From assembly GCA_034440575.1 (NCBI GenBank), contig JAOTOL010001634.1, positions 1,934,501 to 1,998,500 on the forward strand: a DNA stretch of 64,000 nucleotides, read 5' to 3'. Below the pieces are notes generated by a model. That model did no database searches and was not told the DNA's origin. It worked only from the letters and a program-made list of their open reading frames with translations. The stretch is from Imbricaverruca yamaguchii. Taxonomy: Eukaryota; Arthropoda; Thecostraca; Neoverrucidae. Made by a program: the position numbers and the translations under genes. Shown here piece after piece: positions 1 through 61,350 of the stretch; the stretch's first letter is position 1; the number at the start of each line of letters is the position of its first letter.

Positions 1-2334
1 TGGGCCAGGTGGTGGCCGGCCGCCTTCCCTCACGGTGATAACCTGCCGATGGTAGTAACCCTGCTGTCCGTCCTCAGTGGCGGTAACGTGCTGGTGGTGG
101 ATCTGGGCCGGCTGGTGGCCGCCCGCCTTCCCCACGGTGATAACCTGCCCTGGTGGTAACCCTGTTGTCCGTCCTAGTGGCGGTAACGTGCTGGTGGTGG
201 ATCTGGGCCAGGTGGTGGCCGGCCCGCCTTCCCCTCACGGTGATGACCTGTTGGTGGTAATCCTGCTGTCCGTCCTCAGTGGCGGTAACGTGCTGGTGGT
301 GGATCTGGGCCGGTGGTGGCCGGCCCGCCTTCCCTCACGGTGATGACCTGTTGGTGGTAATCCTGCTGTCCGTCCTCAGTGGCGGTAACGTGCTGGTGGT
401 GGATCTGGGCGGTGTGGCCGGCCGCCTTCGGTGATGACCTGTTGGTGGTAACCCTGCTGTCCGTTCAGTGGCGGTAACGTGCTGGTGGTGGATCTGGGCC
501 GGTGGTGGCCGGCGCCTTTTTCTCTTGTCCTTCGTTGTGGGGTAACGTGCTGGTGGTGGATCTGGGCCGGCTGGTGGCCGGCCGCCTCCCTCACGGTGAT
601 GGCCTGTTGGTGGTAACCCTGCTGTCCGTCCTCAGTGGCGGTAACGTGCTGGTGGTGGATCTGGGCCAGGTGGTGGCCGGCCCGCCTTCCCTCACGGTGA
701 TGACCTGTTGGTGGTAACCCTGCTGTCCGTCCTCAGTGGCGGTAACGTGCTGGTGGTGGATCTGGGCCAGGTGGTGGCCGGCCCGCCTTCCCCTCACGGT
801 GATAACCTGTCCCTGGTGGTAATCCTGCTGTCCGTCCTCAGTGGCGGTAACGTGCTGGTGGTGGATCTGGGCCAGGTGGTGGCCGGCCCACCTTCCCCTC
901 ACGGTGATAACCTGTCCCTGGTGGTAACACTGCTGTCCGTCCTCAGTGGCGGTAACGTGCTGGTGGTGGATCTGGGCCGGCTGGTGGCCGGCCCGCCTTC
1001 CCTCACGGTGATGACCTGTTGGTGGTAACCCTGCTGTCCGTCCTCAGTGGCGGTAACGTGCTGGTGGTGGATCTGGGCCGGCTGGTGGCCGGCCCGCCTT
1101 CCCTCACGGTGATAACCTGCCCCTGGTGGTAACCCTGTTTTCCGTCCTCAGTGGCGGTAACGTGCTGGTGGTGGATCTGGGCCAGGTGGTGGCCGGCCCG
1201 CCTTCCCTCACGGTGATAACCTGCCCTGGTGGTAACACTGCTGTCCGTCCTCAGTGGCGGTAACGGCTGGTGGTGGATCTGGGCCGGCTGGTGGCCGGCC
1301 CGCCTTCCCTCACGGTGATAACCTCCCTGGTGGTAACCCTGCTGTCCGTCCTCAGTGGCGGTAACGTGCTGGTGGTGGATCTGGGCCAGGTGGTGGCCGG
1401 CCCGCCTTCCCTCACGGTGATGACCTGTTGGTGGTAACCCTGCTGTCCGTCCTCAGTGGCGGTAACGTGCTGGTGGTGGATCTGGGCCGGCTGGTGGCCG
1501 GCCCGCCTTCCCTCACGGTGATAACCTGCCGCTGGTGGTAACCTGCTGTCCGTCCTCAGTGGCGGTAACGTGCTGGTGGTGGATCTGGGCCGGCTGGTGG
1601 CCGGCCTGCCTTCCCCTCACGGTGATAACCTGCCCCTGGTGGTAACCCTGCTGTCCGTCCTCAGTGGCGGTAACGTGCTGGTGGTGGATCTGGGCCGGCT
1701 GGTGGCCGGCCCGCCTTCCCCTCACGGTGATAACCTGCCCCTGGTGGTAACCCTGCTGTCCGTCCTCAGTGGCGGTAACGTGCTGGTGGTGGATCTGGGC
1801 CGGCTGGTGGCCGGCCCGCCTTCCCCTCACGGTGATAACCTGCCCCTGGTGGTAACCCTGCTGTCCGTCCTCAGTGGCGGTAACGTGCTGGTGGTGGATC
1901 TGGGCCAGGTGGTGGCCGGCCCGCCTTCCCCTCACGGTGATGACCTGTTGGTGGTAACCCTGCTGTCCGTCCTCAGTGGCGGTAACGTGCTGGTGGTGGA
2001 TCTGGGCCGGCTGGTGGCCGGCCCGCCTTCCCCTCACGGTGATAACCTGCCGCTGGTGGTAACCCTGCTGTCCGTCCTCAGTGGCGGTAACGTGCTGGTG
2101 GTGGATCTGGGCCGGCTGGTGGCCGGCCCGCCTTCCCCTCACGGTGATGACCTGTTGGTGGTAACCCTGCTGTCCGTCCTCAGTGGCGGTAACGTGCTGG
2201 TGGTGGATCTGGGCCGGCTGGTGGCCGGCCCGCCTTCCCCTCACGGTGATAACCTGCCCCTGGTGGTAACCCTGCTGTCCGTCCTCAGTGGCGGTAACGT
2301 GCTGGTGGTGGATCTGGGCCGACTGGTGGTCAGC
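1..2334 (+). repeat. Minisatellite carrying copies of the exon 1 acceptor and exon start
   Basis: About 22 tandem units precede the real exon; the array enters from the left edge. The unit begins TGGCGGTAACGTGCTGG and ends ctgtccgtcctcag. Starts of the exon-homologous block are at about 79, 179, 281, 381, 470, 538, 637, 738, 843, 948, 1049, 1153, 1256, 1357, 1458, 1561, 1666, 1771, 1876, 1978, 2083, 2185 and the genuine 2290. The period is 101-105 bp in most of the array and only 102 or 105 in the last seven intervals, so one frame is open from 1570 into exon 1 with a 34-35 residue repeat. Roughly 40 bases of each unit copy exon 1; the remainder is intron-derived. Confidence 0.93.
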
Positions 2335-2461
2335 TCCGAGCTACAGCCGACACTGGAGCTGAGTGTCCTGGCGGACATGAGCCGTGCTGAGCTGGAGGAA
2401 GCCGTGTACGATCGCTACCACTTCCTGCTCACTGACCTGCAGGTGCTCTTCGCCGACTCTG
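2289..2461 (+). CDS. VPS13: VPS13 exon 1 of window
   Basis: The exon begins one base before a GGC codon, after the acceptor tgtccgtcctcag, and ends G|GTGGGTGG (phase 1). It encodes about 57 residues with NVLVVDLGRLVVSS, ELEEAVYDRYHFL and LTDLQVLFADSG, the VPS13 pattern of a conserved 'VVDLG' strand followed by 'YD.(F/Y)...L.D.QVL..DSG'. The start was chosen because the whole upstream minisatellite repeats this acceptor and the first ~40 exon bases, and only this last copy continues into VPS13-like protein. The reading frame stays open far upstream through the array (to 1570), so gene finders may over-extend this exon. Confidence 0.92.
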
Positions 2462-2736
2462 GTGGGTGGACTACACGGCCTTATCTGCTCCTAGCCCAAT
2501 AGCTTTTTCCTACGGCTCCTTTCATTTGAAAATCATGATGTTTGGGCAGAATTAGAAAACAAGCCAATCCTGGATTTTAGTCATCCAAAACTAGGATAAC
2601 TATGAAACTGTTCTACCCCTTCTCTTCTGGGTAATGGAATGATTCTCCGTGACAAGAAACTGACCCATGGTTCTTGCTGTTTCGTAGATAAATTCGAAGT
2701 CCTGTGGTTATTATTATCGGTTTTCATTCTTGCAAT

Positions 2737-2901
2737 CCGGGGGACGAGTGGTCTAGGGGTAAGTTGCTCGTCTCACAATCGAAGTATTGTGGGTTCGAGC
2801 CTCACCTATCGCTACTCTTCGCCCGCGACCAATCGGCGTGAGAGATTGGCATGGCTTCTACATGACTCAACGGTCAATGTGTCGTAAAACCAATAACCAA
2901 C
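2737..2901 (+). mobile_element. tRNA-derived SINE, family 1, copy 1
   Basis: The head resembles a tRNA with A box (GTCTAGGGGTAAGTTGC) and B box (GGGTTCGAGCC). It is followed by the family domain CGACCAATCGGCGTGAGAGA...GTCGTAAAACCAATAACC. A 12-bp target duplication, CATTCTTGCAAT, is at 2725-2736 and 2902-2913. The inserted copy is almost full length. Confidence 0.9.
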
Positions 2902-2913
2902 CATTCTTGCAAT

Positions 2914-5054: not shown

Positions 5055-5696
5055 CTAGCTATGCATGCTGCGCCTCATACAGAACCTGCCCGCCCAGCCC
5101 TCGAGACACAGGCAGCGGAACTGTGTGAGTCCTCGTGGCCGGCACGTGCCGCCGTTCCGACAGGAGTGAGTCCGCTGGCAGATGGGACTGACGCCGCCTG
5201 CGCCGACCAGGCCGCGCTTAGCCCGTTCCGGCCCAGCGTCGACCAGGTGCGTCTCCAGCAGCAGGGACACCACGCCGTCGTCGATGATGGCGCGCTTCCT
5301 GCGCAACATCGGATGGCCGGCGGCCAGTGGGTGTGCTCTGACGGCTGGGTCTGGCTGGGTTCCGCCGCCGTCGCCGCCGGTGTTGGTGCCTGGGCCTGGC
5401 TGGGTTGCGCCGCCGTCGCCGCCGGTGGCCTGGCCGTTGGGTTCGCCGCCGTCGCCGCCGGTGTTGGTGCCTGGGCCTGGCTGGGTTGCGCCGCCGTCGC
5501 CGCCGGTGTTGGTGCCTGGGCCTGGCTGGGTTGCGCCGCCGTCGCCGCCGGTGTTGGTGCCTGGGCCTGGCTGGGTTCCGCCGCCGTCGCCGCCGGTGTT
5601 GGTGCCTGGGCCTGGCTGGGTTGCGCCGCCGTCGCCGACGGTGTTGGTGGCTAGGCCAGTCTGAGCTTGCTCCTTGACATTACCGGAGTCTGTCAT
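5055..5696 (-). CDS. EGF-domain protein with 15-residue repeats, probable terminal exon nested in VPS13 intron 1
   Basis: A 213-codon minus-strand reading frame. Residues about 20-113 are six to seven copies of a 15-residue repeat of the form GGDGGATQPGPGTNT (45-bp DNA period, one copy altered to EPNGQAT). A basic site RRKR follows at about 132-135 and a KR at about 160. One EGF module lies at about 173-206, with six cysteines in the order C-x5-C-x5-C-x9-C-x-C-x8-C and the signatures NGGTC and EGWAGRFC. The frame ends seven residues later, with no transmembrane segment. This suggests a secreted precursor cleaved at dibasic sites. No signal peptide is seen, and the frame is open upstream of the ATG to about 5735, where an acceptor-like cggttaccccgccag occurs. 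This is therefore probably the 3' exon of a longer minus-strand gene. Function and family are unknown; the plus-strand frames over the repeat are shadows. Confidence 0.6.
   Translation of the reverse strand: MTDSGNVKEQAQTGLATNTVGDGGATQPGPGTNTGGDGGGTQPGPGTNTGGDGGATQPGPGTNTGGDGGATQPGPGTNTGGDGGEPNGQATGGDGGATQPGPGTNTGGDGGGTQPDPAVRAHPLAAGHPMLRRKRAIIDDGVVSLLLETHLVDAGPERAKRGLVGAGGVSPICQRTHSCRNGGTCRPRGLTQFRCLCLEGWAGRFCMRRSMHS
5345..5655. repeat. 45-bp coding minisatellite
   Basis: Six to seven 45-bp units, GC-rich, with cores such as GTTGGTGCCTGGGCCTGGCT on the plus strand. The period is a multiple of three and encodes the 15-residue repeat of the minus-strand EGF-domain exon. Confidence 0.85.
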
Positions 5697-5736
5697 GCTG
5701 ACTGCCTGGGTGACACTGGCGGGGTAACCGATGTGA

Positions 5737-7366
5737 AATTCTTACACAGTTTACATAGTTTACGGATGACATTGGTAACGTAAGCTCACATTTTGGATAA
5801 AGGACGCGGTCCTCAACACTTACCCTGCCATCATCAAGCACAGCATCCACGCCGTGTATTGCACACAGAGCGCCAAGTCGGTTTCGACGCGAGTCGTTTT
5901 GGCAGCCCTGGTCATCAGAAGATTTATGTCCGTTTCCTGTGTCTTTGCGAGCTTGTGTTCGCCGCGCTCAGCTAAATGGTGCAACATTTTGCTTCTCGGC
6001 TGATTGTTTGCTTCACCTGTGAATGATTGTGGTTAATGACATTCTTCTTCTTTGGCTTAAGGCAATGTTGGCAACAAGCAAGGTTGTGCATTTGTCGTTG
6101 GACAAGTTCCGAGCAGACGGGTCTCGTCATTTGGCGGCTTGTAAACGACGCAAGTCCGAGTGGATTGTATGTTTGTGAGATGCTACTACATTCGCGTTTT
6201 GAACTCTAGGCATTGAAAGGCTTCTTATATCCAGCAGATGAAACGTGATGATCTATAATGAACCCGTTATATTTAAGCTGCCTGGAGTTCCCTAGTATTT
6301 ATTTCCAAGATATTTTGAATGATAGCGTGCGAAGCATATACCACGAAGATGAATCGCGATGTGTTTCTTCGGCAATGATTCGTTCATCTAGCATTCGGCG
6401 GTGGGAGAGTCCTTGGACTGGATGACCACCTGAGCTTACCCTTCGCTGACCCTGCCCTTGGTTAACCGAGAAAAGCAGAATGATGCACCAAAATCGCACC
6501 CAAGCAGAAGGTTACACTAAAACCGCGCTTAAGCAGAAGGCCATACCGAAATCGTACCTGAGCAGAAAGCTACATCCAAGCCGCGCGGAAACAAGCGGCT
6601 ACACCACAGCTGCTACTTTAATTTACCCAGCCAAAATATGCATCAATGAAACGTGCCTCTGTTGAAGGACATACCCCTAACCGCACAAGCCACGTAAGCA
6701 TTCTTGCCATTGATAAGGCTATGGTTGCATGACATTGATTTAACAATTCACAAAGTAAAGTTCATTCATTTGTAACTACTAGGTTCAGATATTGAGACCA
6801 AACATGATTGGCATTGTCGTTCATGACAGGCATGTCCAGGAGCTCCGCCACGTAATTTTGTTTGGGGTAATGGCAAATGCGATCCTGAAAATCTGCTTTA
6901 GACGCGCGTTACAAAAATACAGAAATACCATTAACTTATCGTGTTTGCATTGTCACCGATACGTTATTGCCATATGCGCGTCCGTCCTGCATCACAATTA
7001 TAACTGAAATTATATCACATTCAGCTCTTGACGTGTGCGCCACGTAACTTTGATTTACAAAACAATGCAATGCGTAGCTATTCAGAACACTCGTTACCAT
7101 TCCGTCCCGTCTTTGTTCGGGCTTTCCCGTCGCACCAACTGGGTATAGGTCCTATAGCAAATTTCTCACGCGGATTTGTAGCGGCGGCGAGGAGCGACAG
7201 GACGACACACAAACTTCGGTTGAGAGACCAGAGCTCTAATCCTACGCTAACCTTTGTCCTTCCCGTGTCGTTCTTCACTCGAGTAATTCCAACACAGGGT
7301 ACAATTCATGAAAAGGGGAGGACATGTCGCGGCACAACCTTGGCGAATATATCCGACGGGCTACAT
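5737..7366. other. Intron sequence with a short degenerate repeat
   Basis: Mostly featureless VPS13 intron 1 sequence. At 6490-6610 there are about four degenerate ~30-bp units built around AAGCAGAAGG/CTACA. No exon is supported. Confidence 0.5.
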
Positions 7367-7368
7367 TA

Positions 7369-10643: not shown

Positions 10644-10645
10644 GC

Positions 10646-12270: not shown

Positions 12271-12429
12271 TGAGGCAGTGCCCGCTGGGTGCGACACTTG
12301 TGCTTGGATTATCTAGATAGCAACTCAAGCTTTCGTCCCATCTCGCCTTTGCCCTACTTTTCAAAAGTTTGAAAACATTTTGTGCAACCGGCTCGCAACG
12401 TGACTGCAGACCTAACCACCGTACGGAGG

Positions 12430-12598
12430 GGGGGGGGACGAGTAGACTAGGGTTAAGTTGTCAGTTTCACAATCGAAAGGTTGTGGGTTCGAGTCTCATC
12501 TATCTCTACTCTTCGCCTGCGACCAATCGGCGTGGGAGATTGGAGACGCTACATGACTCAACGGTCGATGTGTCGTAAAACCAATAACCAACCAACCA
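12430..12598 (+). mobile_element. tRNA-derived SINE, family 1, copy 2
   Basis: Same family as 2737-2901: A box TAGACTAGGGTTAAGTTG, B box GGGTTCGAGTCTC, then CGACCAATCGGCGTGGGAGA and the AACCAATAACCAACCA tail. A short duplication TACGGAGG is at 12422-12429 and 12599-12606. Confidence 0.88.
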
Positions 12599-18253: not shown

Positions 18254-18425
18254 ACACAAGCTGGACATCACGATGAGCGAGTGTCGTCTGAACCTGTCCG
18301 ACCGACGCGTCCGCCGACTGGTGGACTTCTCCGAACGTCTGCCGGTGCCTCGGCCGCTGCAGTATCAGGACGCCGTGGACGCCATGCCGCCGCGCACCGA
18401 CCACCTCTGCATGCAGGAGTGTCAG
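18254..18425 (+). CDS. VPS13: VPS13 exon 3 of window
   Basis: Acceptor gactcggtcttcag, donor GAGTGTCAG|GTCAGTAC, phase 0 at the end. It encodes HKLDITMSECRLNLSDRR, then RLVDFSERLPVP, matching the VPS13 'v.lsd.k...l..l...iPlP' element. The ORF continues open past the donor into the 33-bp minisatellite, but that repeat is not VPS13-like and the donor fits exon 4 in phase. Confidence 0.9.
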
Positions 18426-19110
18426 GTCAGTACTGACGACCACACCTGGGAGAGTGTCAGATCAGTACAGACGGCAACACCGGGGGGCGTCAGATCACTG
18501 CAGACGGCAACACCGGGGAGTGTCAGATCACTGCAGACGGCAACACCGGGGAGTGTCAGATCACTGCAGACGGCAACATCGGGGAGTGTGTCAGATCACC
18601 GCAGACGGCAACATCGGGGAGTGTGTCAGATCACCGCAGACGGCAACACCGGGGAGTGTCAGATCACTGCAGACGGCAGGACACCTGAGAGAAACTTGGG
18701 TCAGTACTGACGGGAGGGGGCATCGGGGAGTGTCAGATCACTGCAGACGGAAACACCGGGGAGTGTCAGATCACTGCAGACGGCAACACCGGGGAGTGTC
18801 AGATCACTGCAGACGGCAACACCGGGGAGTGTCAGATCACTGCAGACGGCAACACCGGGAGAGTGTCAGATCAGTACAGACGGCAACACCGGGGAGTGTC
18901 AGATCACTACAGACGGCAACACCGGGGAGTGTCAGATCACTGCAGACGGCAACACCGGGGAGTGTCAGATCACTGCAGAGGGCAACACCCGGGAGCGTGT
19001 CAGATCAGTACAAGACGGTAACACCGGGGACAGTGTCAGATGGCAACACCGTGGAGGGTCATATGGGCAGAGGGCAACACCGGGGAGAGTCAGATCAGTA
19101 CAGACCAGTG
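18412..19110 (+). repeat. 33-bp minisatellite seeded on the exon 3 donor
   Basis: About 20 units of GGGGAGTGTCAGATCACTGC plus AGACGGCAACACC. The real junction reads GAGTGTCAG|GTCAGTACTGACG; the closest repeat units read GAGTGTCAG|ATCAGTACAGACG (about 18452, 18865). The unit is therefore the exon end plus donor with the first intron base changed from G to A. One intact GGTCAGTACTGACG copy survives at about 18699 in a scrambled context. Most units keep a multiple-of-three length. Confidence 0.92.
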
Positions 19111-26111: not shown

Positions 26112-26266
26112 CTGGAGATAGACGCGACGCAGCTGCGGCGGATTCGCCGTCGGCTGCGCCACGACATGCGCCGCTCCGTGGTGGCCGACACGCCGGACAG
26201 CCCCCTGGTGGACAGTGGCTCGGTGGCGTCCACCACACTCTCGTCCACGGGAGCCGAGGTGCACAG
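26112..26266 (+). CDS. VPS13: VPS13 exon 4 of window
   Basis: Acceptor gtgcccttcctggcag, donor GTGCACAG|GTGAGACTC, ending in phase 2. It encodes LEIDATQLRRIRRRLRHDMR then a Ser/Thr-rich stretch DSGSVASTTLSSTGAEVHR. This is the poorly conserved linker that follows the first helices in VPS13 proteins; assignment rests on phase and position more than on similarity. The last 41 exon bases plus donor are tandemly duplicated just downstream. Confidence 0.8.
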
Positions 26267-26367
26267 GTGAGACTCGGCTCGTGATCAAGTGTTGCTGCGT
26301 CCACTACGCTCTCGTCCACGGGAGCCGAGGTGCACAGGTGAGACTCGGCTCGTGATCAAGTGTTGCT
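26226..26367 (+). repeat. 71-bp tandem duplication of the exon 4 end plus donor
   Basis: Copy 1 (26226-26296) contains the last 41 bases of exon 4, the donor and 30 intron bases. Copy 2 (26297-26367) repeats it with only two or so changes, including GAGGTGCACAG|GTGAGACTC. There are thus two complete donors in tandem. The real exon end is assigned to copy 1 by phase; using copy 2 would add 71 bases and shift the frame. Confidence 0.93.
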
Positions 26368-26894
26368 GGCGACCATCTCTGTAGCCGGTTCACTTGTACG
26401 CACCTGGGTCCCCCGCCGTAGGTGCAATAAATGTCGACCGCTAAACCGACCTCATATTTCCGTCAGAAGTATTCATGCTTGTGCTCTTTGTGTGGCGTTC
26501 ATTCCGCGTTGTTCCTGTTGTTTACTCTATCCTTCGTACGATGGGCAATTAGCGTGATCAATTGGAAGGTACAAATATAATGAAATATATAAGAGCAGTT
26601 CGACTATGTGGGGAAGTATCACATGTACAAAGACAAGTAAACTATCCCTGGCCCGAACCCTACCATCACAAAGGATCGTTCTTAACTAGCATCAGCAATG
26701 CCAATATTGCAGCAAGCCCATTCAGGCTGCGTTTTTTGCCACCCAAATGATGACACTATCTCTTCAAGTGACTTGATGAACAAAACTAACATGCAAAACG
26801 CTTTGGAAACATGGTAATGCATCTGCCGATGAGAACTGACTACGTCACCAGGAGCTGCTCATAGCGTACGTCACCCCCCCCCCCCCATGCTGAG

Positions 26895-33975: not shown

Positions 33976-34680
33976 TCGTCATTGCGCCCTTTCGTCATCC
34001 CCCCACACACTTTGAGGAAGGGAGGATCAATGGCTTATCACGGTCGACGCCCGAGAACACATCGCCCATAGGAGGGCAGCTGGCGGGCTGTCTTGCTTGG
34101 TATATCTGCACGGGTCGTCAAATTCTTCTTGCGGCCATCCCCTATGTGCCATAAATTCGTCCGGGGGGAAAGAACCACAAACAGACAAACAGACAAACAG
34201 CTTGGAGCGAAATCATAAGATAGAGACCGAGATGGTGACCATGCCAGGGACGGACAGCTAAACTGGGACCAAGTGTTGGCCCGAGAGTGAGATCAATACA
34301 ATAATAGAAGCAGAAGGATATTTAGACTGAAATCAAGAGACAGAGACTGAGAGTGAGACGATGGCATATCATTGCAGGGGATTTTCAACAAAGACCCTCC
34401 GATCAAGGTCAACCCCTTCAGAAGTGCCATTATTTCCAACCAGCTGCATCTAGGTCCAGACCATCTAGGTTGATAATGGCATCAGTTGTGTGCTCACAAA
34501 CTGTATCAAATTTAATTTGCCTTGCCTATTATTCGGTATCGAATCAGGAAGCGAGCTTGGCAATTTTACCATACGTCAGATTAGAGAGGCCAAGTCGCAT
34601 CCAGGTATTTATTTGGAGTCCAGGGGACTCCAACTCCCGTCACATTGAATACAATCCACATGTAATTTATGTACGTTAAT
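33976..34680. other. Intron sequence, nothing recognised
   Basis: VPS13 intron 7 interior before the homopolymer tract; no supported feature. Confidence 0.5.
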
Positions 34681-34800
34681 ATAAAAAAAAAAAAAAAATA
34701 AACAACCCTTAAAAATTGGGAAAAAATTTTTTTTTCACACACCCCCAAAATTTCCCCAAAAAAACACACCCCCCCCCCCCCCCCCGCCGGGGGGGGGGGT

Positions 34801-34837
<37 letters not shown>

Positions 34838-35023
34838 ACCAACCCAGAAACCCAAGGGGAGGGGGAGTGGGGGGGGGGGTCGCTTTTTCTTTTTTCAGCC
34901 ATCTGGCCACCGCTAGACGCCCCTGAAGCGTCGGCCCGGCCCCCCCCCCCGCGCGCCTTCGAGCCCCCCCTCCCCCCCCCCCCCCCCCCCTCTTTTTTTT
35001 TTTTTTTTTTTTTTATTCTTTTT
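34681..35023. other. Homopolymer-rich low-confidence sequence
   Basis: Successive runs of A, C, G (over 30 bases), C and T, with very little intervening sequence, between two normal-complexity flanks. This looks like low-quality consensus rather than real genomic sequence. The frames here (poly-Pro, poly-Gly, poly-Phe) should be ignored. Confidence 0.75.
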
Positions 35024-37310
35024 TTATTGTACCCAATCCCAGGGCTTCGGGGTGAGCTCGCGCTTCTGATTCGTGGAGTATTCTTCCCCAGGTCACTCGC
35101 ATCGTCAAGCCGCCTGGGGCCTTCATGGCGTTCTAGAAAGTTCTGGATTGGGTGGCGACTGCTCGAGATCCGGGCCATCGACCTCACGGGCCGATGACCC
35201 TTCTGCCGGAGATGGTTCAGCTGGTGTTTGCACCTCCGGGGCACTAAGCCATATTCCCGGATGTTGTTGCCGGAGCCGCCTTCTGATCTTGGCGCCGGCG
35301 CCACTCGCGTTTGCTTTTGCTTCTCGGACAAATAATTAAATCCAAATAATTAAATCGGATTGAGGTGACGGAGATCTGGCTGGGCTTCTGGCGGCCTGTT
35401 CTGGCGGAAAATATTAAAATTTTGGTGTAGAAAAAAAAATGTAAGCCTCCTTACAGCACCCTCCTCCAAGTGTCCTTGTTTAGCAATGGCGGGTAGCACT
35501 CTAAATTCTAGGATGGCCGATGGCACATCTTTTGGGCATATTGTGGTACAAGGAACATATTCCGATCATGTCAGGTGACTTAGTTATGGTGTTATTCTTG
35601 AGGTGTCGGGCGATTTGTGCTAAGACGGCACTGATGCTACGCACTGCAGTATTAGTGAACCAAAGCCCGTATTTTTGCCAATATTTTGTTTGATTAATCA
35701 GATATAGCTGGGAGTTAAGTCTTCGACATTTCCCACCTAGCATAAGGGCATTCAACTTTTGAAGGCCACAAGGTCTTGCCGGTGTTGGCAATTGCAGATT
35801 TTTTTACACGTACGTTCTATGAGTAACCTCAAAGAAGTACTCGAATGTTATATTTCTTGTATGCTCACGAGAAGCCATCACAGAGCCATGTAAAATAATT
35901 AATCCGCGCCGGGATTGCACAGACTGTCGCCTTCATTTGGCACGGGTGGGGACTGGTACGGCCCCCTATAAATCACAGACAGGGCAGGGTAGAGAAACAA
36001 ACCAAAATTCAGCGCGCAGCTTGCTACAAGCTCTGGCTGGCACCAATAATGGTGCTGTGGGGTAGGATTATGGTTTTATCAAGTTCTGAAGCTCGAGTTC
36101 GCAAGAGGCTGCCCTATCAAATTGTGATAGCATGGCCAAACATGAAATATGCGAGTTTTCGTCGCGATTGAAGCACTTTTGGTCGTGCCGGATCAATCCC
36201 AAAGTTGTCAAAGTCGTGGAATTTAATGAACCGCACTTGCTCGACGAATTTCAGTGCGGCTTCTAGCGTCAAAAATCAACTACAGACAATAGCATTAGAT
36301 TGGTGCACGGCATCAAAAGTGGTTTGTGCATCAAAGGCACAATAGCTGCCTACTTAAACATCATTGCCGTATTCGGCCGATTACACAAGTCCGCACGGAC
36401 GCACGAGCTCCACAAGATAGTATACCCAAGCACGAACTCCACAAGATACCCAAGCAGTTAACACAGACCGTAGTTGTATGGATAAAAGGAAATATTCAAA
36501 TCAGATATATGTATCTCTTGTGTGTGTCTAGGTGCGTCTTTGCATACATAAATTAATTGCATATATCACTGATACGGCAATTTGATATGCATTCAAAACA
36601 AGAACAAATGTTCTGCAAATAATAATTCAATAGCAATGATGGTATATACTCCCCTTCTGAATAATGAGCTTGGGTCCCCGCTGATGAAGATGTTTTGGCA
36701 ATACACACTTGGGAGCATTTATCGTATCCATTTGAAGCATTTGAAATAATACGGAGACAGCGTGAAACATAATCAATATCAAGACAACCATCTCTACGTC
36801 GACTGTCACCAACTCGAAGACTCGATCTGTGTCCGATATTATAGCTGGGTCACGGAAACACGTGATAAAGAAATATGCACGTGAAACGCACGATATTGTA
36901 CATGTAGCATAATGGAGGTATGATATGTATTCACGAAGCAAAGCGAAGTAAAATGGCAATATTTCCTTGTAAGGTTTAGTGGCAGTTGGTTCTGGACTAA
37001 GAGAGCATTAAGTAAAAGCAGCACCACCATAGCAACTTGCCAGCGTCCACATTTAGCTCGTCTTTGACCCACAATGTCGCGAACGATGGAACGCAAGAGG
37101 CCTGCTGCCATCAGCTGTTTGCCATTATAACGTTACCCCGATGACAATGATTATATATTTTGTTTGCAAGCTTCTTTGCCAATTATCGTTTTAGGGAAGT
37201 TCGTACACTGGCGAGCACCGCCAAGGGCGTGACTGAGTTAGCGGTATGTTTGCGGGTGCGTTTCTGCCGCGATGTGGCCGGTGGCCTGCAGCCGCAGCTC
37301 TCCGTTCCAG
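35024..37310. other. Intron sequence with a repeat terminus
   Basis: The 3' part of VPS13 intron 7. At 35400-35456 the minus strand reads CTGTAAGGAGGCTTACAT, the same end motif as at 43147 on the plus strand, suggesting a shared repeat or LTR terminus. Nothing else was recognised. Confidence 0.4.
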
Positions 37311-38622: not shown

Positions 38623-39675
38623 GGGTCATTCCACGTCAAATCGCACAAGAAATTCCCCGACCCTCTCCGATTTTGATGAAAATTGGTACACCTGTAGTAC
38701 CAAGTAAAGAACACATCACGCCAACTTTTAGCCCAGAGTGACCTTTGGGGTCAGATCTAGAGGTCATCCTAGGTCACGTTTTTTACCGACTTGACATCAA
38801 TAAATTGCAAATATCTCATGTGTTATTTAACTTAGCGGAATGAAATTGGTGTCAAAGTGCGCAGAAGCACTTTGGAGCGAAATATTCAGAAATATGGCAA
38901 AAGTTGCACGTGACCTCCCGTGACCTTTGACCTAACCAGGTCAAAGTATACAAATATATTTTTATATATGTTTGCCTGCCCCTAATTCGACGAAACGGTG
39001 GTATATTAATGGTCGTAATATTATCTAAGAACCTGCAAAAAGAAAGGCGGAGACTTGAAAACTTTTGAGATATCGGCCTTTGAGTATTGTCATAGGACCA
39101 AATGGATGCATGCCCCGAGGCTATTTACCATATTATCGATGATAACTCTGGTTACCTTTGTCCGATTATCGTCAAATTTGTTGCGCAAGTCATCGGTGGC
39201 AAACTGAACTATTTTCCAGATTTTCAGGTTGACATGACCTCACATGAACTAACATGACCTTGGGAAGTTTGTATTGCCTAAATACATGCAATATTGCAAC
39301 TTACGTGAATATTCATGGCCATGATATGATTCATGTTAACCGAGAAATCGATAACATTGAGTACCGAAAGTGGACTAATACTGATAGGTCCACCTTAGAG
39401 TGGTTACGCATACTTCTGAAGATTTTGTGCGATCATTTTGCGAGCAGCTGGAAATACTTGTAAAGCATGATTTTGTCGCCCGTGCCCAAGGCAATTATCT
39501 GAAAGGCCTAAAGGAAACACTAGCTCCTGCAGAGGTAATTGTTATTGGAGATTTTTCCGAAAACTACGCTATGGTTACACAGGATGAGGTACAGTCCCAT
39601 CATTGGAACAAACTGCAGGTGACAATCCATCCGTTTGTGGCTTATTGGCGAAACAACGCAGGGGACCTCAAACAT
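38623..39675 (+). mobile_element. Transposon remnant with a DFSENY-family protein fragment
   Basis: Begins at a terminus-like GGGTCATTCCACGTCAAAT followed by TGACC-rich sequence. From about 39390 a plus-strand frame encodes VVTHTSEDFVRSFCEQLEIL, VKHDFVARAQGNYLKGLKET and VIVIGDFSENYAMVTQDEVQ, then SHHWNKLQVTIHPFVAYWRN and AGDLKH. 'GDF.ENY....QD..Q..HWN..Q.T.hPfv.Y' belongs to a protein family I know only as uncharacterised, transposon-associated sequences of cnidarians and arthropods. The Asp/Glu of DFSENY are candidate catalytic or metal residues (inference). The frame ends abruptly where homopolymers start. Confidence 0.6.
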
Positions 39676-41435
<1,760 letters not shown>

Positions 41436-46893: not shown

Positions 46894-47086
46894 AGTTTCC
46901 TGGCGCCATTCATCATTCCCGAGCTGGGCGGCTGGGCGGCCCGCGAGGCAGAGCGTCGCCTGGCGGGTGGTGTGGCAGTCATGAAGCGGCAGGCGCCCAC
47001 CATAAGTCTGTCAGTGCAGCTGCACGCGCCACTGCTCGTCATCCCGGCGCACTCGATCTCCCGCGATGCCCTGCTCGTCAATCTCG
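46894..47086 (+). CDS. VPS13: VPS13 exon 11 of window
   Basis: Acceptor caaccaccgtgcag, donor AATCTCG|GTCAGTGG, phase 1 at the end. It encodes SFLAPFIIPELGGW, then RQAPTISLSVQLHAPLLVIP and SRDALLVNLG. The 'ri.l.v.i.aP.ivIP..s.s...lvvdLG' element is one of the clearest VPS13 signatures. Read-through of the donor gives a stop within about ten codons. Eight copies of the donor follow at 69-bp spacing. Confidence 0.94.
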
Positions 47087-47610
47087 GTCAGTGGTCTGAT
47101 CCACCTCAGTGAAGCTGCAGCCATGCTCCTTCCAACCAGCCGTGACCTTATCTCGGTCAGTGGCCTGATCCACCACAGTGAAGCTGCAGCCATGCCCCTT
47201 CCAACCAGCCGTGACCTTACGTCGGTCAGTGGCCTGATCCACCACAGTGAAGCTGCAGCCATGCCCCTTCCAACCAGCCGTAACCTTACCTCGGTCAGTG
47301 GCCTGATCCACCACAGTGAAGCTGCAGCCATGCCCCTTCCAACCAGCCGTGACCTTACCTCGGTCAGTGGCCTGATCCACCACAGTGAAGCTGCAGCCAT
47401 GCCCCTTCCGACCAGCCGTGACCTTACCTCGGTCAGTGGCCTGATCCACCACAGTGAAGCTGCAGCCATGCCCCTTCCAACCAGCCGTGACCTTACCTCG
47501 GTCAGTGGCCTGATCCACCACAGTGAAGCTGCAGCCATGCCCCTTCCGACCAGCCGTGACCTTACCTCGGTCAGTGGCCTGATCCGCCACAGTGAAGCTG
47601 CATCTTCCAC
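47087..47610 (+). repeat. 69-bp minisatellite starting at the exon 11 donor
   Basis: Eight copies of the donor motif CTCG|GTCAGTGG(C/T)CTGATCC at 47087, 47156, 47225, 47294, 47363, 47432, 47501 and 47570, exactly 69 bp apart. The unit continues with CAGTGAAGCTGCAGCCATGC and CCAGCCGTGACCTTA. The period equals 23 codons, so three frames over the array remain open on the two strands, but not in the exon 11 frame. All copies keep an intact GT. Confidence 0.95.
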
Positions 47611-48962: not shown

Positions 48963-49100
48963 GTTGGATCCCATCATGGCGCCGCCAGTCACACAGGTAG
49001 TGATCTGATCATGGGTACGGGTGTACCACAGGTAATGATCTGATCATGGATACGGGTGTACCACAGGAATGATCGCATCATGGCACCTGTTGTCCCACAG
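48963..49100 (+). repeat. 34-35-bp repeats of the exon 13 acceptor and exon start
   Basis: Four units (48963-48996, 48997-49031, 49032-49066, 49067-49100), each ending cacag and beginning with a G(T)(A/G)(A/G)TGATC..ATCATGG block. That block copies the exon 13 start GTGGTGGATCCCATAATGG. The first unit is closest to the exon (GGATCCCATCATGGCGCC). Units 2 and 3 also read AG|GTA(A/G)TGATC, resembling donors. Confidence 0.85.
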
Positions 49101-49293
49101 GTGGTGGATCCCATAATGGCGCCGACTGCGCTGCGTATAGACGTGCAGAGGGTGGTGCTGCCGGCGCCGACGGGAGTTCTGCCGCTCACCGTCACCGCCA
49201 GCCTGGAGATGCTCGCCCTGGACGTTGCCCAAAGTGACGTGGCACTCGTCTACTCGATAGTGACGGAGAACTTGGCCGAGGGACGGTGGTCCG
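49101..49293 (+). CDS. VPS13: VPS13 exon 13 of window
   Basis: Acceptor cctgttgtcccacag, donor GGTGGTCCG|GTGAGTGGG, phase 1 at the end. It encodes VVDPIMAPTALRIDVQRVVL, PLTVTASLEMLALDVAQSDV and IVTENLAEG, matching 'ep..l...v.RNL......P.i.v.g.l..l.v.lsq.D...i..il.eNl.eg' of VPS13. Tandem copies of its acceptor and first bases lie upstream, and about 20 copies of its donor lie downstream. Confidence 0.94.
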
Positions 49294-49985
49294 GTGAGTG
49301 GGTCACGCCGTGATACCGTGTGGTGAGTGGGCCACACCGTGATACCGTGTGGTGAGTGGGTCACACCGTGATACCGTGTGGTGAGTGGGTCACACCGTGA
49401 TACCGTGTGGTGAGTGGGCCACACCGTGATACCGTGTGGTGAGTGGGCCACACCGTGATACCGTGTGGTGAGTGGGCCACACCGTGATACCGTGTGGTGA
49501 GTGGGCCACACCGTGATACCGTGTGGTGAGTGGGCCACACCGTGATACCGTGTGGTGAGTGGGCCACACCGTGATACCGTGTGGTGAGTGGGTCACACCG
49601 TGATACCGTGTGGTGAGTGGGCCACACCGTGATCCCTGTGGTGAGTGGGCCACACCGTGATACCGTGTGGCGAGTGGGCCACACCGTGATACCGTGATAC
49701 CGTCATACCGTGTGGTGAGTGGGCCACACCGTGATACCGTGTGGCGAGTGGGCCACATCGTGATACCGTCATACCGTGATACCGTGTGGTGAGTGGGTCA
49801 CACCGTGATACCGTGTGGTGAGTGGGCCACACCGTGATACCGTGATACCGCCATACCGTGTGGTGGGTGGTCCACACCGTTATACCGTGTAGTGAGTGGG
49901 CCACACCGTGATACCGTGATACCGTGTGGTGGGTGGTCCACACCGTTATACCGTGCAGTGAGTGGGCCACGTCGTCATTCCTTAT
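49294..49985 (+). repeat. 29-bp minisatellite starting at the exon 13 donor
   Basis: About 20 units of GTGAGTGGGCCACACCGTGA plus TACCGTGTG. The first unit begins exactly at the donor of exon 13. Almost every unit preserves GTGAGTGGG preceded by GTGTG, so each is a strong donor by consensus. Unit boundaries become irregular (TACCGTGATACCG expansions) after 49680. Confidence 0.96.
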
Positions 49986-50639: not shown

Positions 50640-50945
50640 GACTTGTCCTGTAACATTTCTGAGGAGAGCTGGCCGACCTTTTCTCCGGACTGTCAAGCCA
50701 GCACTAGCCCGGACCTGTGTGACCTGACATGATTTGTCGTATATCGGGAAAAAACTGACGGTTCCTGTCTCCGAAGCTGATCTCCAGGCCAATATAATGC
50801 CTGATTCGTGTAACCTGATCTGTCACACGCCAGAAAAGAACTGGCGAGACATGTCTCCAAAACTGATCTCTAGGCCAGTATAGCGTCTGATCTCTCTGAC
50901 CTGACCTGTCACATGTCAGAGGAGAGCTGGCGGACCCTGTCTCCG
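50640..50945 (+). repeat. Degenerate ~86-bp repeats of the exon 14 acceptor and exon start
   Basis: Copies equivalent to the exon start AGGAGAGCTGGCGGACCCTG occur at about 50662 (AGGAGAGCTGGCCGACCTTT), 50747 and 50834 (AAAAGAACTGGCGAGACATG), ahead of the genuine 50920. Each is preceded by TGACCTGA.. and a TGTC-type tract. Divergence is high, so this is an old array. Confidence 0.78.
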
Positions 50946-51092
50946 GATCTGTCCGCCCAGCTACCTCCCGGAGTGGACGACCTGGTCGGCCACCGACTGC
51001 AGGCGTTCCTCTCGGGTCAGGCGCGACCCGAGGCCACCGTCACCATCTCACTGGACGGCGCTACTATTACACTCTACGATGACAGCGGACAG
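50920..51092 (+). CDS. VPS13: VPS13 exon 14 of window
   Basis: Acceptor ctgtcacatgtcag, donor AGCGGACAG|GTGATGCC, phase 0 at the end. It encodes ESWRTLSPDLSAQLPPGVDD, a variable linker, and then ATVTISLDGATITLYDD, matching VPS13 '..f.l.l..l.l.Lyd'. Three degenerate upstream copies of its 5' end are spaced about 86 bp apart. Confidence 0.9.
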
Positions 51093-53500: not shown

Positions 53501-53634
53501 GTAGGTGCTGCGCTCAATTAGTCGGGAACGTTGTCTTCGGACGGGCGGCGAAGTCTCAATAGTGAATCAGTGTTAGGTGCGATAGTGTTCGGTGCCGGGT
53601 TGGAGGCGCGTAGTCGTTACAACTGAACGCTGTC

Positions 53635-53801
53635 GGGGACGGGTAGTCTAGGGGTAAGTTGCTCGTCTCACAATCGAAAGGTTGTGGGTTCGAGTCTCGC
53701 CTGTCGCTACTCTTCGCCTGCGACCAATCGGCGTAAGAGATTGGCGACGCTACATGACTCAACGGTCGATGTGTTGTAAAACCAATAATCAACCAACCAA
53801 T
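53635..53801 (+). mobile_element. tRNA-derived SINE, family 1, copy 3
   Basis: TAGTCTAGGGGTAAGTTGCT (A box), GGGTTCGAGTCTC (B box), then CGACCAATCGGCGTAAGAGA and the AACCAATAATCAACCAACCA tail. A duplication TGAACGCTGTC is at 53624-53634 and 53802-53812. Confidence 0.92.
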
Positions 53802-53812
53802 TGAACGCTGTC

Positions 53813-54533: not shown

Positions 54534-55140
54534 GTAAACATTGTTAACCCTCACCTGCGCATGACATTTTGCCGCCGTCCTCGGTGCAGAAGGCTTTTGA
54601 ACTCCCACACACCTTGTAGTTTCCAAACGAACAGTACCATGAGTGGATATAAAAAAGCCAGCACGTGGTACGTGACGAGACCTCACGAATGATACCAGAG
54701 GTTGATATTTTTGTTCATTGATTAGCCACCCAGGCCAGTTTTGCCCTTTTTATTGATAAATTTCGCGTTTGGCCGTTCCATGTGACAGCAAAAACCAATA
54801 TGGAAGGTAAATGATATTGCGAAAGGCCTTGAAATGTTCAGCATAACATTTTTCAGTATTCTGCGATGCTAACGATGTGTGACGTCATTTCGAGTTTCGA
54901 CCCATAGGTGAAGGGTCAGACCGGGTCGAAATGTTGACCGCATTCTTCAATTCTGAAACTTCCGAGAAATACCAGGAAATACTATTTTCTAGTATCCACG
55001 AATGCAAATTGTTAGCTTCAGTTATAGATTTAGTTTCAGTGGCAAATATAACCTCAGAGTGACTCAGACGCCGAAAGTGGTCACCTGAGGTGAAGTTCGG
55101 TAAGTGACCTCGGATGAGATTGTAAAGATGAGATATCTAG
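54534..55140. other. VPS13 intron 17, first part, nothing recognised
   Basis: No exon. TGACC/GGTCA-type motifs near 54890-55115 resemble those in the 23.9-25.8 kb element, but no ends were found. Confidence 0.45.
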
Positions 55141-55154
55141 GCAAGCATGTCGGG

Positions 55155-55314
55155 GGGACGAGTAGCCTAGGGGTAAGTCGCTCGTGTCACAATCGAAAGG
55201 TTGTGGGTTCGAATCTCACCTGTCGCTACTCTTCGCCCGCGACCAATCGGCGTGAGAGATTGGCGACGCTACTTGACTCAACGGTCGATGTGTCGTAAAA
55301 CCAATAACCAACCA
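55155..55314 (+). mobile_element. tRNA-derived SINE, family 1, copy 4
   Basis: TAGCCTAGGGGTAAGTCGCT, GGGTTCGAATCTC, CGACCAATCGGCGTGAGAGA and the AACCAATAACCAACCA tail. A 14-bp duplication GCAAGCATGTCGGG is at 55141-55154 and 55315-55328. It is the best-preserved copy in the window. Confidence 0.93.
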
Positions 55315-55328
55315 GCAAGCATGTCGGG

Positions 55329-55779
55329 TTAGTTATCAACCACCTTACCACATCATATTGACTATTTGGAAGCTATACTAATTTCCGGTGATTCGCGATT
55401 TCACCGAACAAAAGTCTGACACGTTCCCTCGACTTCTTAGCTCAGGCACCCGACAAGCCTTTTTCCAATTTCTTACGCCTTATGATCCGAAAGATATGCT
55501 CCTGGTGCACCAAGCGGTCGTGCTGTAACCCAAGCCGGTTTGCGCGGTCGCGAAAAAAAAATCATCAGGTGGTTACATCAGCTGTCACATCCTTTCATGT
55601 GCTTGGGCAAGGATTATATTAAATCAGAATCGTCAAGTCCATGTAATGGGCTATATTACGCCAGGTCTGTTCTTATGTATCTGCCTCTGTCTCTGTCTTT
55701 GTCCCTGGCTCTGTGCCGATATCATCTTAACTCTTTCAACGGTAGTTAGACTTGCACAAATATATATGATCCGTCCTCG
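55329..55779. other. VPS13 intron 17 middle, nothing recognised
   Basis: No supported feature. Confidence 0.5.
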
Positions 55780-56409
55780 ACAGCAGACCTGATTGCAATA
55801 CACGTGTCTTCGGCTGCAGATCTGACCGTAACCCCTTGGCGGAGATAGCTTTGGTTGTTACCTTCTTTTATCTCCTTGGTAGGTCTGCCTGTAACCCCCA
55901 CCCCACCCTCCTCTCCACTCGGCGAAAAATCTGTCTGTAGGCCCATCTGTGGTCGGCGGTAGTTCTGACATGTGATCCACTCTCCCCTCGGCGCCAAATC
56001 TGTCTGTAGGCCCATCTGTGGTCGGCGGTAGTTCCGACATGCGATCCCCTCTCCCCTCGACGCCAAATCTGTCTGAAGGCCCATCTGTGGTCGGCGGTAG
56101 TTCTGACATGTGATCCACTCTCCCCTCGGCGCCAAATCTGTCTGTAGGCCCATCTGTGGTCGGCGGTAGTTCTGACATGCGATCCACTCTCCCCTCGGCG
56201 CCAAATCTGTCTGTAGGCCCATCTGTGGTCGGCGGTAGTTCTGACATGCGATCCACTCTCCCCTCGGCGCCAAATCTGTCTGTAGGCCCATCTGTGGTCG
56301 GCGGTAGTTCTGACATGTGATCCACTCTCCCCTCGGCGCCAAATCTGTCTGTAGACCCATCTGTGGTCGGCGGTAGTTCTGACATGCGATCCCCTCTCCT
56401 CGATGACAG
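55780..56409 (+). repeat. 69-bp minisatellite ending at the exon 18 acceptor
   Basis: Seven regular units from about 55900; AGTTCTGACATG landmarks are at 55961, 56030, 56099, 56168, 56237, 56306 and 56375, each 69 bp apart. Degenerate copies lie before (GCAGATCTGACCGTAACC at 55818, GTAGGTCTGCCTGTAACC at about 55881) and resemble the exon 18 start CAGGTCTGACGATTACC. In the regular units the homologous site reads GCCAAATCTGTCTG, so AG is lost. An antisense frame of about 200 codons over the array is a by-product of the 23-codon period. Confidence 0.87.
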
Positions 56410-56570
56410 GTCTGACGATTACCGCTCAGCTCCGCACTCCCGAGCTCGTGCTACTGGTTGATCCGACAGAGAAGTCTGGTCGGAAGCTGGTGGTCAGGGC
56501 GGAGGTGGCCGCCAACTACATCCGGGCTGCCGGCCAACGGTCGGCTGCACTGTCCCTGACTGACCTACAG
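56410..56570 (+). CDS. VPS13: VPS13 exon 18 of window
   Basis: Acceptor ctcctcgatgacag, donor GACCTACAG|GTCAGCAC, phase 0 at the end. It encodes LTITAQLRTPELVLLVDPTE, then KLVVRAEVAANYIRAAG and ALSLTDLQ, matching VPS13 'l.i...l..PEivl..d......Lvl..e......' closely. A 69-bp minisatellite ends at its acceptor, and a second copy of its exon-end/donor motif sits about 245 bp downstream. Confidence 0.93.
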
Positions 56571-56939: not shown

Positions 56940-57277
56940 ACTCTCCTGCACAGTATTGATGGTATATCCCGACACTTCCGCCTGTGTTTCCAGTGGTATG
57001 CAGTATTGATGGTATATCCCGACACTTCTGCCTGTGTTTCCAGTGGTATGCAGTGTTGATGGTATATCCCGACACTTCCGCCTGTGTTTCCAGTGGTATG
57101 CAGTATTGATGGTATATTCCGATGCTTCTGCCCGTGTACCGTGTGGTGTACGATATTGATGATACATCCCAACACTTCTGCCTGTGTACCGTGTGATGTA
57201 TGATACCCAACACTTCTGCCTGTGCTCAGTGTCTGGTATGCAGGCTCGATAGTACACCTTGATGGCGTGTATTTCAG
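56940..57277 (+). repeat. 50-bp repeats ahead of exon 19
   Basis: Landmarks CAG(T)(A/G)TTGATGGTATAT are at 56951, 57001, 57051 and 57101 and then degenerate to about 57235. Each unit contains a TGTGTTTCCAG acceptor-like tract and CCGACAC. The exon 19 junction reads GTGTATTTCAG followed within 16 bases by CCGACACGG, so the array probably derives from this acceptor. Confidence 0.72.
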
Positions 57278-57451
57278 CTATGTCAGGGCCGACACGGTGC
57301 CCTGCGGCGGTCGGAGCGGGTCATTCTGCAGCCGTGCGACCTGTCGCTGAGTTACAGCGGACCCGACGGCGAGACGGTTGTCTCAATGGTGATGAACTGG
57401 AACAACATCAAAGTCCATCTTGTGGAGGCGGCGGTGCGCACTTTCTCCCAG
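57278..57451 (+). CDS. VPS13: VPS13 exon 19 of window
   Basis: Acceptor gatggcgtgtatttcag, donor TTCTCCCAG|GTACATAG, phase 0 on both sides, 58 codons. It encodes SERVILQPCDLSLSY then VVSMVMNWNNIKVHLVEAAV and RTFSQ. The 'vLqPcd' motif followed by 'i.v..s...i.v.vs...i..i' is diagnostic for VPS13. Confidence 0.93.
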
Positions 57452-59084: not shown

Positions 59085-59164
59085 GTGAGCATGTATGTAC
59101 CAGACCAATATTTCCCAACAAAAAGCCCGTGGAATCACTGGAGATTCACCTACCCTCTGTATCG
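59085..59164 (+). CDS. VPS13: VPS13 exon 21 of window
   Basis: Acceptor gcatctttctcag, donor GTATCG|GTAAGACT, phase 0 at the end. It encodes EHVCTRPIFPNKKPVESLEI then HLPSVS, a short exon matching 'E.l.v..p.i.v.lE' in VPS13. It is AT-richer than most exons here. Confidence 0.82.
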
Positions 59165-61255
59165 GTAAGACTATATCGACCAAGTGTTTCATGTGGTCGA
59201 TCTATTTTCGCATTGTGAACGTCAGCTAATGTGTGCATAAAGGATTTACTAGTAGGGTGCTCATTTTTCTTTCTATGTTATGAGCGCATCAGTCACCTAT
59301 ATTCTACGCAATGCACGTGTATTCTACGCATCTATAGCATTCGCCGGGCGTATTTTCACTACGCGCTTACCAATGTTTTGTCAAATGGTTGGGGTGATCT
59401 TTGTAACCATGGAGAAAAAGTACGAGTTTCTCATGATGATGATGATGAATTGGGGTTTTGGGGCGCGTCGACTACCAGGGTCATTTTGAGCCATTTTGAG
59501 TTTCCCAAAGCTATTAGTGGTACGAAAACGTTAGTTTGTTCGTTATTTTGCTAAGTCAATAAAATAAGTAGAAGTTATCTACTTCTTTGCTGCACCATTT
59601 ATCTTGTTCTAAATTTTGAAAAGTATAAACGTTGCCGCTGTCAACACCAGGTCAGGCAGTCCTTACCGATAAAAAGGCCTAATGTATTTTGAAATTTGTC
59701 TACGTCTTTCCTGCTCGCTTAGTTACTCGGATTTTGTGAGATATCCTTTTTATAAAATTACGTTTCTCTAAATATTGTTACCACATGGCAGCACCAATAT
59801 TTTTATTTGTTTAATACAAAATGTACAATAAAATTACATTCCCACATAGAAGGAAATACCATAGCATAAAACGAGAAGAAATGGTGAAGAGGAATAGGCC
59901 ACAAATTATGTTGCCAGCACTTAGTGGAAGACGACGTTTGATAAAGTTTTTGTAAAGATGGCAAAGAATATAGGAAGAATTGCTCGGAGCCTACGCCTTG
60001 TGTGTGTCTGTGGGCTTGATCTGAATGGTGTATTTGATACATTCACCAACTGTGCCGTTTCTCGTGGTCCAGAATTCAAATTGAGATTCGTTCGAGTAGC
60101 TTGCATTTCGTGTTAGAAATTCACGCGTGCTTTACCCAATAAGTGAGCGATCTCTGACTAGTTATATCCGCTGGCCCAAAGCCAATTCATTCAACTGGTC
60201 AATCCCAAAATGCAACGTGCCACATGCATAAGTAGCATTGCAGATCCCATCACGTTAAAGTGAAAGCAAGAGGATGCGCAATAGGGATGCAGTTTGGTAT
60301 TGACCGTGTTTGTTTGCCCAGAATAGGCATGGGTAGAGCTGACTGCATTTGAGGATACTTGCTATGCTGCAGTTCAGAACGCCCACAAAAACTTCGAATG
60401 ATCCTCGCGATAAGGCTTTTGGTTTCGCTAGCTATCTACAATCTAGTTGGTATGCTTGCCTTATGTGTTGGGCTGGTCTCAATTGTTTGGTTTGTCGTCT
60501 TTGTCGTAAATTCTGGCCAAAATTTGTAGCATTTACTGATCTGATCAAGCTGATCAAAATAGGCGGTTACTGATGTGAACGGTAGAAGGTGGTTACTTCA
60601 GAGGTGGACAAATGTATTTCTAGACAACGAATGCATGGACTGTTATATACATCACATATCGACACTGGCTGCTACGGATACTTATAGTCCGTATCAGGGT
60701 TGTGGTGTTACCGGGAATAACTAGTCTTTGTCATGACAACCATTTTTACCGGTACAAAAATGCACAAATACATCACTGGAAAAAAGCAAGGAACAAAAAG
60801 ATGTTATGCTAACACTTCCTGTGACATTTTCAGCTCCAATGTTACGTGACATTTTGCTAGACATACAAACGGTATGTCTTACATATCTGGAAAACATTAT
60901 GCAAAGTATTTGCAGGGCCTTGATCAGTAAAAATCGGTGACAACAGTTTTGCTGGCAGAAACTTCCAACCCTGGTTTGTACGCCACTATCGAATTGAATG
61001 TGTCTTACCATGGCGACGAGCCCCGCGTGCATGATCAGCCTTGTAATCTGTGACTTTTAGGGACACTTCTGGATCCGTACCAGCGATCACTTTGCTGATC
61101 CTGCTCTTCAAGTGTAATCCAAGGAGGCTTTATCCTTGGTAGACGTCCTGTTTATTATGATTCCTGATGGAGTTTGATGGACCGCAGTTAGACACACAAG
61201 GGGGGAGGGGGCACCCGCACGCTTCACCCAAAGCAACTCAACCTCCTCCAGTGGA
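59165..61255. other. VPS13 intron 21, nothing recognised
   Basis: About 2.1 kb without exon-like or repeat structure beyond a small (GAT)n at 59433-59447. Confidence 0.5.
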
Positions 61256-61261
61256 TTTTGT

Positions 61262-61350
61262 CTGTAGTAGCTGGTATATCGATTCACGTGGCAATCTGAC
61301 GTTTGTGTGTCGATTCACGTGGTAACCTGGCATTGGTGTATCGGCTTCCG
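61262..61350 (+). repeat. Short ~44-bp repeat before exon 22
   Basis: Two to three degenerate units around GTGTGTCGATTCACGTGG(T/C)AA and CTGACGTTTG/CTGGCATTGG, ending about 30 bases before the exon 22 acceptor. The acceptor is not clearly part of the unit. Confidence 0.6.

Follow-up and report, generated by a model that had tools for sequence, protein, structure and literature searches.

Why minisatellites should lie so often where an exon meets an intron is the question raised by a 64,000 bp stretch of the genome of the barnacle Imbricaverruca yamaguchii (contig JAOTOL010001634.1, here C1401, positions 1934501-1998500; hereafter the window), which carries part of a VPS13 gene and comes from an assembly of 767,457,503 bases in 1,430 contigs. 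The initial annotation named 11 junctions of this gene at which the adjacent minisatellite looked like an expansion of the splice junction itself, and took their number to suggest a mechanism acting at junctions. The arrays are probably 'mirage' minisatellites, arising from duplications that straddle an exon-intron junction, are founded at GC-rich exon edges, are tolerated as the exon survives and then expand. Coordinates below are those of the window and of its plus strand unless stated otherwise.

The predicted gene is of the VPS13A/C type. It was modelled in the window as 22 exons with GT-AG introns throughout, matching phases and 1144 codons without a stop. The first 20 exons were drawn by hand; later the start of exon 5 was moved from 26895 to 26949 after alignment with an Amphibalanus amphitrite protein, and exons 21 and 22 were added. 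The donor of exon 22 is uncertain, falling at 61482 by hand and at 61487 in the automatic model. A VPS13C chain in PDB matches the window gene (E=5e-63), the aligned parts lying between residues 4 and 897. When candidates were restricted to proteins of comparable length, a search yielded 6 matches at 24-42% identity, the named ones being from insects and molluscs. With a padded full-length query, for which 7991 candidates were scored, the VPS13A-like protein of A. amphitrite was the best of 6 listed matches (67% identity over 92%), and it aligns without gaps at most junctions. Spliced alignment of that protein over 264 kb, with the match of one short exon placed by hand, produced a gene of 64 exons and returned 21 of the 22 window exons unchanged; the gene exon number is the window exon number plus 10. 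Taken exon by exon, the full model shows no stop. Its internal exons when joined are not open in one frame, at least since the exon 32/33 pair is unsettled (the hand donor of exon 32 was kept).

Each junction, represented by 10 exon and 30 intron bases, was compared with the sequence at all offsets from 10 to 400 bp on its intron side, and a copy was accepted at an identity of at least 0.70. By this measure 8 of the 44 junctions in the window are spanned by a tandem copy, the identities being 0.97 at the exon 1 acceptor, 0.80 at the exon 3 donor, 1.00 at both the exon 4 donor and the exon 6 acceptor, 0.85 at the exon 11 donor, 0.70 and 0.80 at the acceptor and donor of exon 13, and 0.72 at the exon 14 acceptor. 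A flank of 20 exon and 20 intron bases gives 5 of 44. Eight of the 11 junctions named at the outset thus carry copies, and the range of ages proposed for the arrays is borne out by identities of about 0.7 to 1.0. The remaining three, both sides of exon 18 and the acceptor of exon 19, fail. The array before exon 18 ends 10 bp short of it, the exon 18 donor has a single match at 0.69, below the cut-off, and the array nearest to exon 19 is 37 bp away. The rest of the same gene has 14 spanned junctions out of 82 (13 with the flank of 20 exon and 20 intron bases), so that the whole gene has 22 of 126, comprising 11 donors and 11 acceptors. At 16 of these 22, at least 7 exon bases are common to the junction and its copy.

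The arrays differ widely in form. A 105-bp minisatellite (1-2329) begins ~300 bp upstream of the window and ends in exon 1 (2289-2461; gene exon 11), each copy combining ~56 bp from the acceptor side with 41-49 bp of the exon start. Twenty-two decoy copies fall within the window, and AG is retained in 21 of them. On the donor of exon 3 (18254-18425; gene exon 13) lies a 33-bp array (18416-19041) with ~10 exon bp per copy, in which nearly all decoys have AT in place of GT (17 of 18 lack GT, and none of 8 was intact in a second count). The AT decoys of this array look like the spread of one disabled copy. The donor of exon 4 (26112-26266; gene exon 14) carries only a two-copy duplication (26226-26368) of a 71 bp unit with 41 exon and 30 intron bases; its copies are 97% identical. 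The acceptor of exon 6 (28515-28745; gene exon 16) is covered by an 80-bp array (27475-28622) whose units hold 35 intron and at least 45 exon bp, some copies equalling the junction exactly.

Further downstream, the donor of exon 11 (46894-47086; gene exon 21) is followed by a 69-bp array (47083-47602) that includes 4-6 exon bp and retains GT in all 7 decoys. Exon 13 (49101-49293; gene exon 23) has arrays on both sides, namely a decayed 35-bp array on the acceptor (48992-49102) and a 29-bp array that starts at the donor GT (49293-49970) and shares a single exon base. Most arrays do span their junction, as originally described, and those at the donors of exons 11 and 13 are better described as abutting it than as spanning it. 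A decayed 86-bp array (50748-50944) crosses the acceptor of exon 14 (50920-51092; gene exon 24). Three other arrays are near an exon without spanning its edge: a 69-bp array (55911-56399) ending 10 bp before exon 18 (56410-56570), a 50-bp array (56951-57240) before exon 19 (57278-57451), and a 31-bp array (61272-61343) ending 34 bp before exon 22 (61378-61482 with the hand-drawn donor).

Alignment of the copies shows that each unit is built from its own exon edge and its own intron edge. Pairwise comparison of the 19 VPS13 junction arrays (blastn, E up to 1e-5) found no two that were similar, and a genome search found the exon 4 unit at one position. The arrays thus lack the common sequence expected if a mobile or dispersed repeat had inserted into splice sites. 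An Rfam scan at gathering thresholds gave no match. Unit length among the 19 ranges from 27 to 105 bp and is a multiple of 3 in five, which gives no indication of selection for reading frame; the number of counted copies at one junction reaches 51. The earliest stages are represented as well. Among 28 two-copy runs listed, those that are isolated (outside any longer array), within the gene and of a unit of at least 50 bp are the duplications at the exon 4 donor and at the donor of gene exon 61 (62 bp, 100% identical). Both straddle donors, with end homologies of 1 and 2 bp, respectively. Microhomology between AG and GT motifs, which the initial annotation had offered as one possible cause, is not favoured by these two youngest isolated duplications, although they are two cases only.

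Whether arrays fall on junctions more often than chance would place them depends on what is counted. As a naive point control takes an array once for each of its copies, the founding duplication was treated as the relevant event; each array was reduced to one unit, which was scored if it touched an exon edge and was not contained entirely in an exon. Eight of the 22 window arrays qualify, where 0.73 would be expected, and none of 1,000,000 simulations reached 8. Founders matched for GC content raise the expectation to 2.0 (P=8e-5), and when at least 4 bp are required on each side 6 arrays remain where 1.8 are expected (P=0.003). Since the window had been picked for its pattern, the rest of the gene was tested. 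Nine of the 23 arrays in the part downstream of the window meet this definition, with 1.6 expected under a uniform null (P=9e-6) and 4.0 under GC matching (P=0.0053). Over the whole gene the count is 19 of 54 against expectations of 2.42 and 5.93, respectively (P=2.3e-7 for the latter), or 17 against 5.2 with 4 bp on each side (P=8e-7); here the window contributes 7 of 22, as the array at exon 1 extends back past the first base of the window.

Two other gene families were sampled in the same genome. For the myosins, the 72 myosin-head exon matches were ranked by E-value and 40 were used; one match within a single 720-aa frame was excluded, as were those with stops and two at loci overlapping others already included. 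A few of the loci used still have flanking sequence in common. For the kinesins, 20 of 126 matches were taken in the same order, leaving out those with stops and four overlapping neighbours. Exon edges in both are estimates based on splice signals and the domain match. Tandem copies span 5 of 79 junctions in the myosins and 7 of 37 in the kinesins (12 of 116 together), but four of the seven kinesin cases represent two events, as two loci are copies of one gene, and L073 is at the threshold. In the clearest case, L050, 30 exon and 30 intron bases recur unchanged 85 bp on. The two kinesin copies, L067 and L066 (C1362 near 850625 and 1420871), lie on the same contig and are 94% identical over the main aligned stretch; the same mirage arrays flank one exon in both, with 8.3 and 10.0 copies in the donor array, a difference between gene copies within one genome. 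Long open frames beside some myosin exons had been considered as stop-free arrays filling introns, and this was rejected, as the letters at L024 and L035 show stops close by.

In the kinesins 6 of 14 arrays overlap an exon edge, where GC matching predicts 1.6 (P=0.0025, the two duplicate loci included), and the families together give 10 of 54 with 3.6 expected under the uniform null and 4.8 under GC matching (P=0.017). Arrays within 50 bp of an exon edge number 15 of 40 in myosins (GC-matched expectation 7.8, P=0.005) and 8 of 14 in kinesins (3.1, P=0.004), or 23 of 54 together where 10.9 are expected (P=1e-4). With the duplicate locus removed and one edge corrected by hand, the uniform null gives 2.7 for an observed overlap of 8 of 53 (P=0.005) and 6.9 for an observed 22 of 53 within 50 bp (P=2e-7). 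A real excess at junctions, first noticed in the window, is therefore supported, and it recurs in the same gene outside the window and at kinesin exons. In myosins it holds in part, with crowding near exon edges exceeding the GC-matched null and overlap itself not doing so. Spanned junctions are commoner in VPS13 (22 of 126) than in the two families (10 of 114), short of significance (P=0.058).

The reading that we consider probable begins with a segment of ~27-105 bp, straddling or abutting an exon-intron junction, that a repair or replication error would copy in tandem. These founders would arise preferentially in GC-rich DNA and hence mostly in or beside exons, a step supported by the higher GC content of junctions with arrays than of those without (0.636 vs 0.579, p=0.007). 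Duplications wholly within exons would disrupt the protein and be lost. This filtering is supported by the scarcity of copies within exon interiors, with 1.3% positive among 856 tests (428 points, both sides), and by the alignments across junctions. A duplication straddling the junction would be harmless, as the copy touching the exon keeps the correct splice site and leaves the exon whole. The array would then expand and contract into the intron through slippage or unequal exchange, the true junction staying as the outermost copy.

Several observations weigh against this account. The naive point control shows no excess, with a tandem neighbour at 18% of junctions (8 of 44) and at 13% of intronic points. 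The part of the gene upstream of the window shows a weak excess (2 of 8 arrays; P=0.022 uniform, 0.059 GC-matched), and in myosins the overlap of 4 of 40 arrays is near expectation (2.5 uniform, P=0.23; 3.2 GC-matched, P=0.4). The copy at 6 of the 22 junctions spanned in VPS13 has no more than six exon bases in common with the junction. Use of the exon-touching splice site is presumed from homology. The threefold excess in VPS13 survives GC matching and is left unexplained by duplication in GC-rich DNA followed by filtering; a junction-specific bias may be needed in addition.

A stronger form of such a bias would be a junction-directed process, beyond base composition, that repeatedly founds splice-site minisatellites across the barnacle genome, fills introns with intact decoy splice sites and thereby drives the growth of introns and puts splice-site choice to the test at many loci. 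We regard this as possible but doubtful. Somewhat less likely again is its opposite, that composition alone accounts for the arrays, minisatellites being founded in GC-rich DNA and tolerated at exon edges with nothing specific to junctions. Part of the junction excess does arise in this way, because arrays favour GC-rich DNA and exon edges are GC-rich; with GC matched, 5.9 overlapping arrays are expected in VPS13 where the uniform null gives 2.4, and 4.8 in place of 3.6 in myosins and kinesins together, and the 4 overlapping arrays of the myosins fit the 3.2 expected. Composition falls short of the 19 arrays in VPS13 (5.9 expected, P=2e-7), of the 6 of 14 in kinesins, albeit with two duplicate loci among them, and of the proximity seen in both families together (23 of 54 where 10.9 are expected).

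Mutation linked to transcription or splicing, for example through breaks at junctions that are bound by the spliceosome or held in R-loops, could also found duplications at splice sites. It would account for an excess beyond GC content in VPS13 and the kinesins and for the equal shares of donors and acceptors, 11 of each, but the weaker effect in myosins counts against it and we think it an improbable source.

That the arrays are instead steps in the creation or sliding of introns, with duplicated AG and GT sites giving rise to the present junctions and the arrays being the older, seems very improbable. Such a course has been proposed for lancelet globins in the accessible part of PMC3087553, and intact sites are plentiful here, the splice dinucleotide (GT or AG) being retained in 204 of 222 decoys; to be counted, a decoy had to reach 75% identity with the junction across 30 bp, a threshold that favours intact copies. 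Against it, the alignment with the A. amphitrite protein is free of gaps at most junctions and the exon ends seem not to have moved. In the Rogers model both ends of an intron come from one duplicated exon segment, and this was not so in the two introns compared, between window exons 13 and 14 and gene exons 47 and 48, where the arrays at either end are dissimilar. Assembly artefact is hardly credible, for although tandem arrays are prone to misassembly and the window looks poor at about 39.8-41.4 kb, point changes are common to subsets of copies and similar arrays are present in several genes, which lie on several contigs.

Other features of the region were noted. In intron 1, an open reading frame on the minus strand (5058-5741) contains a match to an EGF domain (Pfam E=2.3e-5); a 45-bp array at 5345-5711 is in frame with it, and this minisatellite may be coding. 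Intron 7 contains a decayed reverse-transcriptase element (30288-31775), with a match to RVT_1 for 30830-31132 just below the cut-off. A short element recurs at about 2606-2884, 12321-12575, 53627-53801 and 55104-55329, with translations that are similar by eye, and is perhaps a short interspersed element (SINE). The segments 39600-41430 and 34680-35030 are A-rich and rich in homopolymers, unlike the remaining window, and are possibly of low assembly quality. Beyond the window, at about 2097287-2097502 of C1401 (162787-163002 in window numbering, minus strand), an exon which we take to be MED22-like has a 41-bp array ending ~25 bp before its acceptor. Open frames in the flanks were considered as a source of other genes and abandoned as too noisy, inspection being confined to the MED22-like exon and three other frames.

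These arrays extend what was a lancelet curiosity to a crustacean and show how frequent it is there, with roughly a sixth of the junctions affected in VPS13 (22 of 126) and a tenth of those sampled in myosins and kinesins (12 of 116, one locus being duplicated). Donors trailed by dozens of copies of themselves form a natural experiment on site choice by the spliceosome. The two-copy cases allow direct study of how minisatellites originate and of the route by which a duplicated boundary has been proposed to become a new intron.

Among the open-licence papers listed (15 of 364, 4 of 4 and 7 of 7 matches) none reports junction minisatellites in a barnacle or other crustacean, and no paper with the phrase 'mirage minisatellites' was found. 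The mention in the initial annotation of such arrays in amphioxus was correct, and their kind is thus not new. As described in the accessible portions of PMC3087553 and PMC3902484, to which the lancelet comparisons below are confined, mirages are known from the lancelet genes for Adh3, globins, PGBD5 and others, and troponin C is also cited for splice-site duplication (PMC3902484). In VPS13, likewise, the tandem units hold both sides of an exon-intron boundary, and in the window the authentic boundary lies beside an intact exon with the frame kept over the 1144 codons and in alignment with A. amphitrite. What is new is the crustacean lineage, a density above that of the reports known, and a statistical test against composition, of a sort not encountered in those portions.

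Human duplicated genes resemble VPS13 in that minisatellites vary at their exon-intron boundaries, a variation at times credited with creating introns, but they are recent primate paralogues with half of the repeats in coding sequence (PMC2812944, from the part available). Daphnia is also a crustacean with duplications at or in introns; according to the available part of PMC4202315, however, the repeats there measure 4-12 bp, lie in recently gained introns and match one of the adjacent exons, and they are attributed to staggered double-strand breaks. The lancelet genes are closer. Adh3 of amphioxus (Canestro et al. 2002, via PMC3087553) has tandem units across an exon-intron boundary with the exon intact, as in VPS13, but in a lancelet, with units of 10-72 bp and with reported somatic instability. 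In PGBD5, tandem repeats of 60 and 108 bp lie over the 5′ and 3′ splice sites; unlike those of VPS13, they are described as imperfect, with the 108-bp unit in 3 copies (PMC3902484). The amphioxus globins BflGb6 and BflGb9 share with VPS13 the involvement of both 5′ and 3′ boundaries and the retention of AG or GT in many copies, but their units are 150-160 bp and one boundary is described per gene (PMC3087553). BflGb6 has 6 and 3 repeats in two haplotypes, whereas in VPS13 arrays occur at 22 of 126 junctions with up to 51 counted copies.

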